Below are positions 3,525-22,287 of a DNA stretch of 22,731 bases, one piece after another. The notes below the pieces were generated by a model. That model was given only the letters and a program-made list of their open reading frames with translations. It did no database searches and was not told where the DNA came from. Source of the stretch: a virus; IMG/VR virus record IMGVR_UViG_3300026521_000077, positions 1 to 22,731 of that record; one strand, given 5' to 3'. Both the position numbers and the translations under genes were made by a program. How positions within the stretch are numbered: position 1 is the first letter of the stretch; each line of letters starts with the position of its first letter.

Positions 3525-4232
3525 TTATATTATTTTGTTGGCAAAATAGCTATCTATCTTGTCGTCGAACTTGTCACCAAACCCCGTATTGTGTGGGTTA
3601 AATCCGAAAGTGCCTCTACTGTCATAACTTATAAAAACACTACCCACGCCTTGTGGTCTAGGAACTAAATCCAACTGCTTGATGTATTGTATCATATTGT
3701 ATGTGAAAGTTTTATCCATATAAACCCCCATCACCATATTTCTCATATCTGTAACATAAGCTAATCCGTCAAAAAGATAATCCACGGCGTTTTGTACGCT
3801 AAAATGGTTACTATCTATCATTGTGGCTTTGGCATAATTTTTCGTGATTTTTGCTTTTATGAAAAACCTATAATCCGTATCATCTAGCTCACTTGTGGCA
3901 TAAGGTATTTCAAACTTGTCCTTAAAAGTATGGGATACTACCCCGTCATCAAACTTGTCTCCCATTGGGTAGGCTGATGGGTTGTCCCTAAAGCCAAAAT
4001 ATTTTTTAGGTACAGAAAAAGGCACTATTCTACTCACCCCTACAATTTTACCGATAATATCTAATTGTTTACCAATAGCCAAATCAACATCAAAAGCCCT
4101 ATCAAAACTATTTAGTAAGTCATAGATTTCACTAAACTTACTAATAATTGCCTCTATATGCTTGTTTGCTTTTGGCTTGTTGGCATATTGAATAATTAAA
4201 AGCTTTTTATACTCACTAATAAATAAATCCAT
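3525..4232 (-). CDS. DUF2612-type baseplate protein (tail protein I equivalent)
   Basis: The 235-residue protein starts with a helical segment (about 1-45) followed by AFDVDLAIGKQLDIIGKIVG, which is the recognisable core of DUF2612. The family sits directly after the J-like wedge gene in many contractile-tailed phages and takes the place of P2 gpI, linking baseplate wedges to fibres. The C-terminal part has aromatic and glycine-rich repeats of the GFNPHNTGFGDKFDD kind; a related GFRDNPSAYPMGDKFDD occurs near residues 84-100, so the protein contains two copies of a short G-x-KFDD motif. The SD GGAG lies inside the end of the J gene, one base separates the two genes, and the fibre gene follows. 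Confidence 0.75.
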   Translation of the reverse strand: MDLFISEYKKLLIIQYANKPKANKHIEAIISKFSEIYDLLNSFDRAFDVDLAIGKQLDIIGKIVGVSRIVPFSVPKKYFGFRDNPSAYPMGDKFDDGVVSHTFKDKFEIPYATSELDDTDYRFFIKAKITKNYAKATMIDSNHFSVQNAVDYLFDGLAYVTDMRNMVMGVYMDKTFTYNMIQYIKQLDLVPRPQGVGSVFISYDSRGTFGFNPHNTGFGDKFDDKIDSYFANKII

Positions 4233-18822: not shown

Positions 18823-20241
18823 CTATACTAAATCATTGTAGTTAAAGGTTTGCTGTTTAAACGCTATTTCTACCCCATCAATCAATGTATCTACTATATC
18901 ATCATGGGTAGAGTTTGGGAAACTACTATATTCACTTATTAAAGCATCAAGATATGGCAAATCATCTACTATATAAAGCCCAAAAGTTTCTATATACGGG
19001 GCTACATCTTCAGCCCTAAAAACTTTATCCCTGTTTCTTTCTATTTCGTACACCATATAGCCATCATCTGTCATTCTTTGGTACAAGTCTATTCCACTTG
19101 CTTTCTGTTCAATATACATTCCCTGGAAAGGATAGCTATAATTTTTATTATAAAAACTCTTAGCTATAATTTCTCTTTCCTTACTTCTCGGCTTCCCCCT
19201 GTATATATCCAAAAGATATAGCTTGTTATCAAATAAACCGAAAGCACTATACACAGTGTAATCATTTATCTCCTTATCTTTTAAAGCAGTATCTACCGTA
19301 ATAAATTTTTTTTCAAAGCTAATATCTTCTATCATTTGCCGATTAACATATTTTAGCCAATCAGTTTTTAGCAGATTACCACTCTTAATAATGGGGTTTT
19401 GCTGATAAAGGGCTTCAAAATTCTCAAGAGTCATTGTTTTCTTTCTCTCTAAGATAAAGTCAACTGATTTATGTTCTGGCAAAAGGGCTTCACCTTTTTT
19501 TCTACACTTCTCATCTTCTTCGGCGATAGCCTTGTATGTTACAACCTTATACCCCCCTAGCTTTATCATTCTTCCAGCTGGGTCATCAATATGCCATCTT
19601 GTTAAAATCATCAAAAAACCAGCGTTTTCATCGAAACGAGTTAAAAAGTCATCTGTGAACCAATCCCAAGTTTTCTCTCTAAAAGTCTCACTATTTGCTG
19701 TTTCTCTACCTTTCAGGGGGTCATCAATTACGCCCAAATCCAATGTTTCCCCTGTAATACTCCCTTGAACAGTTGTGTTTCTAAAATAACCATCTGTACC
19801 AGCATATTCTATTATATTTTTGTTTTTTTGTGTAGTAACATTGGTTATAGTATTGCCATTTGTTGTTAATTTTGGAAATATCGACTTGTATATCTTTTTC
19901 TCATAAATCCTCTGAAGAGACAAGTTAGCTCTTACCCCTAGCCTATCACTAAAACTTGCGTAAATAATTCTAAACTCGGGGTGCTTACCACTTAGCCACG
20001 CGATAAAGTCTATAATCGCTGTACTCTTCCCGTGTTGGGGCGGGGCTTGAATAATAAGCTTAGGCTTTTTACCACTCATTAAGTCATCATAAAATTTTTG
20101 GAGATGATTGCTCATATCCTCCAAAAACCAGTTTGTTTTTAATTTTGGATTTAAAAGCTTTCTAAAAGTTGAAAAATCATCTCTAGCTAATGCTACTTTG
20201 TAATTAAAGATGGCTTCTAATTGCTCAGCTGTGTAGTTCAT
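18823..20241 (-). CDS. terL: Terminase large subunit
   Basis: The 472-residue protein has an ATPase with Walker A QAPPQHGKST (about 65-74) and Walker B LGVIDDP (about 169-175), then LMILTRWHIDDP (coupling motif). The nuclease domain shows FITVDTALK with D317, MYIEQK with E379 and THDDIVDTLIDG with D447/D448, a complete acidic triad of the RNase H-like fold. It cleaves and pumps phage DNA into the prohead at the portal. The start overlaps the small subunit stop (ATGA). Length is normal; the active-site residues all look intact. Confidence 0.95.
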   Translation of the reverse strand: MNYTAEQLEAIFNYKVALARDDFSTFRKLLNPKLKTNWFLEDMSNHLQKFYDDLMSGKKPKLIIQAPPQHGKSTAIIDFIAWLSGKHPEFRIIYASFSDRLGVRANLSLQRIYEKKIYKSIFPKLTTNGNTITNVTTQKNKNIIEYAGTDGYFRNTTVQGSITGETLDLGVIDDPLKGRETANSETFREKTWDWFTDDFLTRFDENAGFLMILTRWHIDDPAGRMIKLGGYKVVTYKAIAEEDEKCRKKGEALLPEHKSVDFILERKKTMTLENFEALYQQNPIIKSGNLLKTDWLKYVNRQMIEDISFEKKFITVDTALKDKEINDYTVYSAFGLFDNKLYLLDIYRGKPRSKEREIIAKSFYNKNYSYPFQGMYIEQKASGIDLYQRMTDDGYMVYEIERNRDKVFRAEDVAPYIETFGLYIVDDLPYLDALISEYSSFPNSTHDDIVDTLIDGVEIAFKQQTFNYNDLV

Positions 20242-20774
20242 TTTACCAACACCTCTAACGGAACACCAAGAGACAGAGCTTTTTCTCTTGCTTCGTCTAG
20301 TGTCAAAATTACACCTGATTGATTATTATTGTTTTGAGTAACATTGAATTCAGTTTTACTGTTTTGTGGATTAACCATACTCTCCAAGTCTTTTACAGAA
20401 CCCGTTAAGCTTTTGACATTTTTTAAGGTTATGTCATCTTTATTTTTTAGGATTATAGCTTGAAAAAGCTTTGCGAGTTTTCTATTATTTAACATTATTT
20501 CGTTGTCAAGTTCTGTTGTAGAAATACGCTCTTTTACTGCTTGTTCAATAGCCTTGATTTCTGTTACGCTTTTGTTACTTTTTGCCTGCTCCAAAATCAA
20601 TGAAGCTTCGACTATACCAGCATTATCTCTAAATTTGAAGTTGTTACTTTTTTCTAATTCGTAGTATGTTTTTCTAGCTATCTTATGCTTTTTACACAAG
20701 TCTGTTACATTTTTAAATCTTCCTGCTTTAGCGTCTGCTATAATTTTATCTTTTTTAGATTGTTTTAGTGCCAT
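20238..20774 (-). CDS. terS: Terminase small subunit
   Basis: The 178-residue protein has an N-terminal helix-turn-helix region (about 20-42: NVTDLCKKHKIARKTYYELE), typical of small terminases, which bind packaging sites. A central charged helical part (about 60-130) is probably the oligomerisation domain. A Gln/Asn-rich linker (FNVTQNNNNQSG, about 144-155) leads to a short C-terminal helix (LDEAREKALSLGVPLEVLVK) that may contact the large subunit. The ATG is preceded by AGGGGGG, with a six-C run on the plus strand at 20778-20783. The stop overlaps the start of the large subunit gene. Confidence 0.85.
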   Translation of the reverse strand: MALKQSKKDKIIADAKAGRFKNVTDLCKKHKIARKTYYELEKSNNFKFRDNAGIVEASLILEQAKSNKSVTEIKAIEQAVKERISTTELDNEIMLNNRKLAKLFQAIILKNKDDITLKNVKSLTGSVKDLESMVNPQNSKTEFNVTQNNNNQSGVILTLDEAREKALSLGVPLEVLVK

Positions 20775-20818: not shown

Positions 20819-21460
20819 CTACATATCTAAGTGTAAATCATCTAACTCACTAAAATCAGGCTCGGGTTCTTCTTTCTTATATTTGTTGTATTTACTATCT
20901 TCCCCAAGCTTGTCAAACTCAAAATAACTATACTCTTTGTTCATAATGTCTTTACAAATCTCTATCATATAATCATAAAAGGCTTTATCATCACTAATCT
21001 CAAAGTTCTCAAGCCTTTTGTTTTCGTTTAGGTTCATAGATGTTCTAACTACTATGTTAAATTTCTCATTTCTTATTAGCACAAACTTAGCGTGAGAGTT
21101 TGTTATATGTATATGCCCCTCAAACAACTCTTCAAATACTTTGAAGTTATCGCCCCCGACTTTTGTTCTAGCACTTCTATCTAATATAAAATCTATTTTA
21201 TTTATTAGTTTATTCTCTTTTAGTGTGTTTACTTTTCTTATGTCATAGTTAGCAGCCGTCCAAGTTGCTATCACGACACCACACACTCCTATTTCTCTTA
21301 CTATATGCTCTATAATGTTTATTATAGAAAATTGACCTTTAGTTAAACAGTATAGGTTAATATTTGGCTCTATCTTCCCTATTGCTTTTTTAGCATTCTC
21401 ATTATAGAGAGCGTGTCTAATCTCTCTGTTTTTCTGCCTAGTTCTATATGCTTTTGTCAT
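20819..21460 (-). CDS. PLD-like phage protein
   Basis: The 213-residue protein has a basic N-terminus (TKAYRTRQKNREIRHALYNE), an IATWTAANYDI strand (about 64-74), FILDRSARTK, and HITNSHAKFVLIRN (about 118-131), followed by VVRTSMNLNENKRLENFEIS (about 137-156). H123 and K125 with S141, N143 and E151 fit a single half of the phospholipase D fold (HxK...S-x-N...E), without the usual Asp of HKD. Related proteins occur in other phages next to terminase genes, where their role is unknown; a nuclease or DNA-end role is possible. The gene is the first of the leftward series. It is preceded by AAAGGAACGAG and separated from the next gene by 44 bases. Confidence 0.7.
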   Translation of the reverse strand: MTKAYRTRQKNREIRHALYNENAKKAIGKIEPNINLYCLTKGQFSIINIIEHIVREIGVCGVVIATWTAANYDIRKVNTLKENKLINKIDFILDRSARTKVGGDNFKVFEELFEGHIHITNSHAKFVLIRNEKFNIVVRTSMNLNENKRLENFEISDDKAFYDYMIEICKDIMNKEYSYFEFDKLGEDSKYNKYKKEEPEPDFSELDDLHLDM

Positions 21461-21482: not shown

Positions 21483-21488
21483 ATTATA
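21483..21488 (-). promoter_or_regulatory. Leftward promoter -10 candidate for the PLD-like gene
   Basis: The minus strand reads TATAAT 22 bases before the ATG at 21460. No consensus -35 lies at 16-18 bases. The perfect operator (21512-21525) is centred 33 bases upstream of the -10, so a bound regulator could activate from there. The leader would be about 16 bases and includes AAAGGAACGAG. Confidence 0.45.
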
Positions 21489-21511: not shown

Positions 21512-21525
21512 TTGACTCGAGTCAA
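21512..21525. promoter_or_regulatory. Operator 1: perfect 14-bp palindrome
   Basis: The sequence TTGACTCGAGTCAA is a perfect palindrome (two 7-base arms) in the divergent intergenic region. The same arms, TTGACT and AGTCAA, recur in operator 2, 66 bases away centre to centre, about six helical turns. It sits on the leftward side, upstream of the leftward -10, in a position for a dimeric phage regulator that is not encoded in this window. Confidence 0.65.
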
Positions 21526-21577
21526 AAGAAGATATTTAAAAAAATACAAATATTTCTCTTTTTTATTGTCTAAACTA

Positions 21578-21591
21578 TTGACTGAAGTCAA
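21578..21591. promoter_or_regulatory. Operator 2 overlapping rightward -35
   Basis: TTGACTGAAGTCAA has the same six-base arms as operator 1 with GA instead of CG at the centre, so it is an imperfect palindrome only at the middle two bases. Its left arm is also the -35 box of the rightward promoter, so bound protein should block RNA polymerase there. Confidence 0.65.
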
Positions 21592-21606
21592 TATATATGA
21601 TATAAT
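21578..21606 (+). promoter_or_regulatory. Strong rightward sigma70-type promoter
   Basis: TTGACT (21578-21583) and TATAAT (21601-21606) are separated by 17 bases, and the -10 is extended by TGA. This is close to a consensus sigma70 promoter. Transcription would start near 21613 and the first gene's ATG at 21637 follows AAAGGA. Operator 2 covers the -35. Confidence 0.75.
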
Positions 21607-21636
21607 ACGGGTACATTTAAACAAAGGAATAACGAA

Positions 21637-21972
21637 ATGAAAAAGATAAGAATAAGCACAATAGAAAGATTAATAAAAGAGGATATGTTTCCCAATGTAG
21701 ATGGAGAATTATTTGGAGAAATACAGCAAACTGAGCTTGCTGGTAAAAAAACGATAGATAAGAGCTTCTTTGATAGCTGGGTAAAAAAGCAAATCGATAT
21801 TATAAAAGAGCGTATTAAGACAGTAAAAAACCCGAATCGAATAAAGGAGGCTTTCGAAGATGGGAGGGACGGATATGAAATTTTTGATGGGATAATAGTA
21901 TGGGACAAAAAAGAATTAAAAGACATACAAAGAAATCTAGAAAAAAAAATAAAAAAAATGTCAAAAATATAG
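21637..21972 (+). CDS. Unknown 111-residue protein, first gene of rightward operon
   Basis: I recognise no family. The protein begins MKKIRISTIERLIKEDMFPN, has a DGELFGEIQQTELAGKKTID middle and a short YEIFDGIIVWDKKEL stretch, and ends with a very basic helix (KDIQRNLEKKIKKMSKI). The N-terminal ISTIERLIKEDMFPNV resembles a winged-helix or HTH segment used by small phage DNA-binding proteins, but this is a guess. It is directly behind the operator-controlled promoter with AAAGGA eight bases before the ATG, so it is the first product expected when the operator is free. It is distinctly Lys-rich. Confidence 0.6.
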   Translation: MKKIRISTIERLIKEDMFPNVDGELFGEIQQTELAGKKTIDKSFFDSWVKKQIDIIKERIKTVKNPNRIKEAFEDGRDGYEIFDGIIVWDKKELKDIQRNLEKKIKKMSKI

Positions 21973-21973
21973 C

Positions 21974-22022
21974 CTCCAAAGTGGGGGGTAACCCCCTAAT
22001 TGACACGCGTTGCCCTTTGGGG
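21974..22022 (+). other. GC-rich structured element between two early genes
   Basis: In an AT-rich context, 49 bases contain an outer stem (CCTCCAAAG, from 21974-21981, pairing with CTTTGGGG at 22015-22022; eight pairs including one G-T) that encloses an inner five-pair stem of G's and C's (21983-21987 with 21992-21996) closed by a GTAA loop of GNRA type, plus a CACGCGTTG segment. It starts just after the stop of the first gene and ends 31 bases before the next ATG. It is not followed by a T run, so a simple intrinsic terminator is unlikely; a leader structure, small RNA, or a recombination or packaging site are possible. Confidence 0.5.
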
Positions 22023-22053
22023 TTAAAGCATAAAATAAAAGGAAGAGAATAGA

Positions 22054-22287
22054 ATGGAAATGGAAACAGTAAAAGATAATATCACTTTGTGCTGTCCATA
22101 TAAGGAGTATTTGATGATACAAATAGACTGGACAGAGTTTAACCCTTCAGGGTGGCATATAGAAAAAGAAGGAGATAAAGAAGTGATAAATTTCAACAAT
22201 ATATTTATCACCGATAGGGATAATTTTAAAGGCGATGAGTATGGCAATCTTTATGTGCCTAAAAGTTTTTTGTCTGAAGCCAAATAA
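22054..22287 (+). CDS. Unknown 77-residue protein
   Basis: The protein begins MEMETVKDNITLCCPYKEYL, then IQIDWTEFNPSGWHIEKEGD, and ends NLYVPKSFLSEAK. It is acidic and beta-like and has two adjacent cysteines; no family is recognised. The ATG follows AAAGGAAGAG at suitable spacing, and the gene lies on the same strand as, and between, the first and third rightward genes. Its start is well supported by the RBS; a second in-frame ATG (codon 3) is possible. Confidence 0.55.
   Translation: MEMETVKDNITLCCPYKEYLMIQIDWTEFNPSGWHIEKEGDKEVINFNNIFITDRDNFKGDEYGNLYVPKSFLSEAK

Follow-up and report, generated by a model that had tools for sequence, protein, structure and literature searches.

The window analysed here is a whole IMG/VR record of 22,731 bases and holds the late part of a phage of the contractile-tail type. 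Its leftward late genes include those for TerL and the portal, for a Mu F-like protein and for a protein with DUF3383, whose relatives in some phages carry the annotation tail sheath. Leftward and rightward transcription part at a 176-bp divergent gap. The gene that adjoins the gap on the left, and the first to be read leftward, encodes a phage endonuclease (phrog_16945, NucT-like; 20819..21460, minus strand), and is followed in the same unit by a TerS-like gene (20238-20774) and then by the gene for TerL (phrog_38; 18823-20241). On the other side lies the first rightward early ORF (21637..21972, plus strand; 111 amino acids), for which no homologue was found. The rightward ORFs of the window are orphans, a search for relatives of these early ORFs having found none, and the last of them is broken off at the record end.

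Between the ORF starts at 21460 (leftward) and 21637 (rightward) lie two 14-bp palindromes to which no strand is assigned: a putative left operator that is fully self-complementary (TTGACTCGAGTCAA, 21512..21525) and a putative right operator (TTGACTGAAGTCAA, 21578..21591), each made of the 6-bp arms TTGACT and AGTCAA around a 2-bp centre. Their starts are 66 bp apart, and the pair is thus found, at exact coordinates, where an earlier note on this DNA had described two palindromes with the same arms in a divergent region. The record holds these two exact TTGACTNNAGTCAA copies and no others, as judged by a scan of arm spacings from 0 to 12, against 0.0029 sites expected under a first-order Markov model. 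A pair of same-arm palindromes (defined by 6-bp arms, a spacer of 0-8 and both palindromes no more than 150 bp apart) occurs once in the window and in 0 of 300 dinucleotide shuffles; taken together, these results exclude a chance origin of the pair.

In the rightward early promoter (21578..21606, plus strand), 17 bp separate TTGACT (21578-21583) from TATAAT (21601-21606) and TGA precedes the -10, as in an extended -10; the right palindrome covers the -35 position and reaches through the upstream half of the spacer. The same note had seen here a near-consensus promoter with the palindrome at its -35, in an interval closing at 21606, which is the last base of the -10; that description holds, with 11 of 12 sigma-70 consensus positions matched. 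Since the same scan averages 1.5 matches per shuffle of the region, the match by itself is not significant. The promoter is followed by a leader (ACATTTAAACAAA, 21613..21625, plus strand) and then GGA, an arrangement conserved behind all four operator-promoters of the window and of the related phage described below.

On the minus strand, a perfect TATAAT (21483..21488) is the -10 of the promoter of the nuclease and terminase transcription unit. This leftward promoter has no -35, the best hexamer 15-19 bp upstream of the -10 matching TTGACA at 1 of 6 positions, and it also lacks TGn. The left operator ends 23 bp upstream of the -10, and its centre falls at about -42.5 from a start inferred by the position of that -10.

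The palindrome in a related phage

When 2.9 million viral contigs were scanned for the operator joined to a -10, 43 stretches matched; in the contexts examined they belong to several unrelated families. They include one true relative of the window, G050 (IMGVR 3300026521_000280), a linear metagenome record of 38,162 bases that is possibly incomplete, and this relative carries three copies of the operator (449-462, 32094-32107 and 32916-32929; 0.005 expected), each ahead of early genes. Further copies in phage DNA, which the earlier note had proposed to look for, are therefore present as three exact ones with the geometry of the right site, and its idea that the divergent region holds paired operators has good support. 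Every G050 copy has the same anatomy: TTGACT..AGTCAA, nine bases ending in TGn, TATAAT, ACATTTAAACAAA, a GGA-type ribosome-binding stretch and ATG, with the TGnTATAAT -10 placed 17 bp after TTGACT, as at the right site of the window.

The early-promoter cassette of the window (21539..21642, plus strand) is 95% identical to G050 501-398, and the homology ends short of the left operator. When the right site is compared with the first G050 operator, the arms agree at 12 of 12 positions and the flanks at 38 of 40 and 9 of 9, while the two central bases both differ (GA vs TC, 0/2). In every other pairing of the four promoters, only 12-16 of the 40 bp upstream are alike, yet both arms agree at 6 of 6; arms that are kept while the sequence upstream diverges are the mark of a site to which a protein binds.

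Besides the early cassette, G050 shares the left end of the window (94% over 2134 bp), but its late module has a lambda GpA-type terminase, split by a LAGLIDADG element, and a lambda-type portal. Judged by its sequence, G050 is a mosaic. Because its terminase is unrelated to that of the window, the cassette survives an exchange of late genes, and the sites and their geometry are shared by phages with unrelated late modules; the support for the cassette comes from this one related phage, itself a metagenome record. The left operator of the window adjoins a late module that is absent from G050, and has no counterpart there. Among the leftward, early genes of G050 are those for a Sak single-strand annealing protein (SSAP), a YqaJ nuclease, SSB and a DnaB-like ATPase.

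Behind the first early gene, a stretch with a GGGGGTAACCCCC dyad (window 21977-22040) is 86% conserved in G050, though the genes differ; this stretch has no Rfam match and folds no better than its shuffles (z -0.93). Farther along the window there is a possible decayed operator (TTGTCTGAAGCCAA, 22270..22283, plus strand) with 2 mismatches, 38 bp ahead of a TTAAACAAAAAGGA leader. The offset nearly equals that of the intact cassettes, in what is a post hoc find that overlaps the end of the ORF at 22054-22287.

The motif in other phages

In 1.63 Mb of phage loci that had not been selected for the palindrome (overlapping loci were retained, and 57 loci had been picked by the TATAAT-leader motif), none of 46 TTGAC[AT]-N16-18-TATAAT promoters has the second arm, and the second arm stands at the right distance from none of 855 TTGACT words. 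It is thus not a by-product of promoter sequence. A scan for the leader gave 59 stretches; among the contexts examined, operator and leader occur together in G050 alone, and the rest look like chance or unrelated leaders.

The closest terL relatives (L003-L009) are 57-75% identical to the window. When 83 sequences (L001-L082 and the window) were searched for the motif, matches were confined to those derived from the window. For 48 of the 80 terL loci whole records were searched, the remaining short-contig loci being covered by the 83-sequence search alone; these 48 gave one match, in G020, where by ORF reading the single site falls in a structural-type gene region, and none in L003-L009. In the three upstream regions that were read (L003, L005 and L006) the terminase sits behind genes on the same strand, so these loci lack an equivalent gap. 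Nor is the intergenic region shared with relatives of the PLD nuclease (0 of 49 records), and the viral scan gave none. In L209 (G069) a different palindrome lies over a -35, but in a single place of that locus, so that a parallel system is not claimed. The 14-mer of the window operators is also carried by a TTGACTNNAGTCAA array at 3942-4018 of IMGVR 3300037296_000224 (L083), which probably represents origin iterons.

Probable host and search for a regulator

The G050 helicase matched 25 phage records, 18 of them named Helicobacter phages and 7 named 'Bacteriophage sp.', all seven of which are listed with Helicobacter hosts. The host is therefore probably a member of the Campylobacterota, and this bears on a claim of the earlier note, that the palindrome arm doubles as a -35. 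TTGACT does sit at the -35 position, in all four early promoters of the window and G050, but its role there is uncertain: promoters of C. jejuni show a periodic A/T pattern in place of a -35, together with TGxTATAAT (PMC3656092). All four phage early promoters have TGnTATAAT and in this resemble the Campylobacterota housekeeping promoters, to which a TTGACT at -35 is foreign; in the phage it is perhaps an operator arm. A host that uses extended -10 promoters makes the arm doubtful as a -35, and the TTGACT of the early promoters may be there for the regulator alone. A leftward promoter with no -35 may be normal in the suspected host.

No regulator was found among the 9 window proteins scanned, and HTH_3, S24 and tyrosine-integrase searches of the window gave no match. 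For both the S24 repressor and the tyrosine integrase there were 0 matches in the window record and in G050, each possibly incomplete, where G072 and G001 were positive. The Crp-type HTH (PF13545) was found in 0 of 8 phage records, the window and G050 among them, and in 14 of 14 control genomes. The sole HTH_3 match in G050 is its TerS-like protein (phrog_57). The expectation that the regulator is encoded outside the window was thus not borne out by the 38 kb of G050, possibly incomplete, which are without S24, tyrosine-integrase and Crp-type HTH matches. Two small G050 proteins were considered and are not claimed as regulators: the model of a 118-aa protein was too poor to use (pLDDT 38.7), and a 72-aa protein at the head of the late operon, modelled with helices at 5-14 and 18-25 and then a long helix (pLDDT 81.6), returned nothing from Foldseek at E <= 0.001. 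Among the paper titles listed in literature searches, none showed a phage operator of this sequence.

Discussion

The reading we favour, at a probability of roughly 0.6, is that one dimeric regulator represses the early promoters at sites of the right type and activates the late genes from the left site. Since the palindrome recurs at three early promoters of the related phage, a single control protein very probably binds both palindromes of the window; we infer that it is a dimer, probably of the helix-turn-helix kind, with both palindromes as its operators. At the right site and the three G050 sites it would cover a strong extended -10 promoter from the -35 into the spacer, turning the early genes off. 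The centre of the right site is at about -28.5 of the inferred start, from where a bound protein would exclude polymerase, and the genes shut off in G050 would be those for replication and recombination. At the left site, about 42 bp upstream of the nuclease-terminase start, the regulator would contact RNA polymerase and turn the late genes on, and one protein would in this way flip the phage from early to late. Activation from a position near -42 is the mode of lambda CI at OR2 and of class II Crp/Fnr proteins. The placing of the left site at about -42 from a -10 that has no -35 suggests activation as well as repression, so that the packaging genes may be activated from it. For repression the scheme draws on four sites in two phages; for activation it has a single site and inferred starts. 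Against the reading count the failure to find a regulator gene, the lack of the motif in the closest terL relatives, and a leftward promoter that may be without a -35 simply because this is usual in the suspected host.

A host protein might do the same work. A Crp/Fnr-superfamily regulator, similar to HcpR or NssR and sensing NO or redox state, could activate from the left site at about -42 as in class II activation, for which the position is typical, and repress at the right one, with no need of a phage repressor; it would suit this unlikely reading that neither the window nor G050 has an S24 repressor, a tyrosine integrase or a Crp-type HTH. That a phage with no repressor of its own should use such a host protein as its early/late switch, tied to the nitrosative or redox state of the cell, we think rather unlikely. 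The HcpR box has the consensus wyTTGACnnnnGTCAArw, whose core (TTGACnnnnGTCAA, that is TTGAC-N4-GTCAA) fits all five phage sites, and NssR, a Crp-Fnr regulator of C. jejuni, has the motif TTAACnnnnGTTAA (PMC1274295). However, all five sites also have a fixed inner T at position 6 and A at position 9, where the HcpR consensus is free, their flanks match wy..rw only in part, the other phage loci scanned (L003-L009 and L209-L213) have no HcpR-core site, and the phage records are without a Crp-type protein. The C-boxes of restriction-modification controllers, inverted repeats to which very small HTH proteins bind and whose core is GACT/AGTC, share that inverted core with the phage sites, but the order of the repeats is unlike that of the AhdI box, AGTCCN2GGACT (PMC5282649), and no restriction-modification genes were noticed among the phage proteins scanned. 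Both resemblances are leads, not memberships.

Improbable, too, is a classical lysogeny switch like that of lambda, in which a CI/Cro-type repressor from the unsequenced part of the genome would silence the prophage through these operators. As at OR and OL, one palindrome recurs in several copies at early promoters and the same operator stands at divergent promoters, overlapping the early one, with a copy at about -42 from a promoter that lacks a -35, as for CI at PRM, although here the likeness is one of geometry only and the start is inferred; moreover L212 (G072), which has a relative of the G050 helicase, possesses an S24 repressor, a Cro-like protein and an integrase. Yet the gene opposite the early promoter is the repressor in lambda and here the late nuclease-terminase operon, each promoter has a single site where lambda has three, the window and the 38 kb of G050 gave no match to a CI-type (S24) gene or to a tyrosine integrase, and L212 has no exact copy of the palindrome. 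It is very improbable that the palindromes are iterons of a replication initiator or other DNA-processing sites and not transcriptional operators: beyond these phages, closely spaced copies were found in L083 alone, where four TTGACTNNAGTCAA follow one another in 21-bp steps inside an O-like initiator gene, but the promoter copies in the window and G050 are single and fixed relative to TATAAT, and the initiator gene of G050 has no such array. Coincidence, with AGTCAA falling by chance behind good -35 hexamers, is hardly credible. Many of the 43 palindrome-TATAAT stretches of the viral collection are in unrelated phages, so that a lone case can be due to chance or to independent origin; against this stand the 0 of 855 TTGACT words in the background, the five sites across two related phages, and a left site that is not at a -35.

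Under the favoured reading of one regulator acting at both kinds of site, this is a sound and well-conserved phage operator system whose design is of a familiar kind. To our knowledge, gene control in the phages of the deep-branching, AT-rich Campylobacterota has been little described, and a defined operator, a portable cassette of operator, promoter and leader, and a paired late site offer a concrete handle on it. Should a redox regulator of the host prove to be the binder, the development of the phage would be coupled directly to host respiration.

Several minor observations were made along the way. The GpA-type TerL gene of G050 (L149, 1586-4738) carries an in-frame LAGLIDADG/homing-endonuclease insertion ahead of the ATPase match and is intein-like, and a 121-aa protein from the early region of G050 (L150, 12929-13294) matches the Thoeris inhibitor Tad3, though below threshold (E 0.0068). 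The leader TACATTTAAACAAAAGGA, or near variants of it, stands behind TATAAT in other phages that have no operator (L199 at 11029, L179, L184 and L204) and may be a common translation leader. Finally, many isolate phages have an unrelated promoter family in which TTGACT(T/C)AAGTCAACT lies over the -35, ahead of a small gene of the MDW(L/I)II type (L106, L109-L111, L113, L115, L118, L119, L124, L125, L127, L130-L132 and L134); it looks like another design with a palindrome over the -35.
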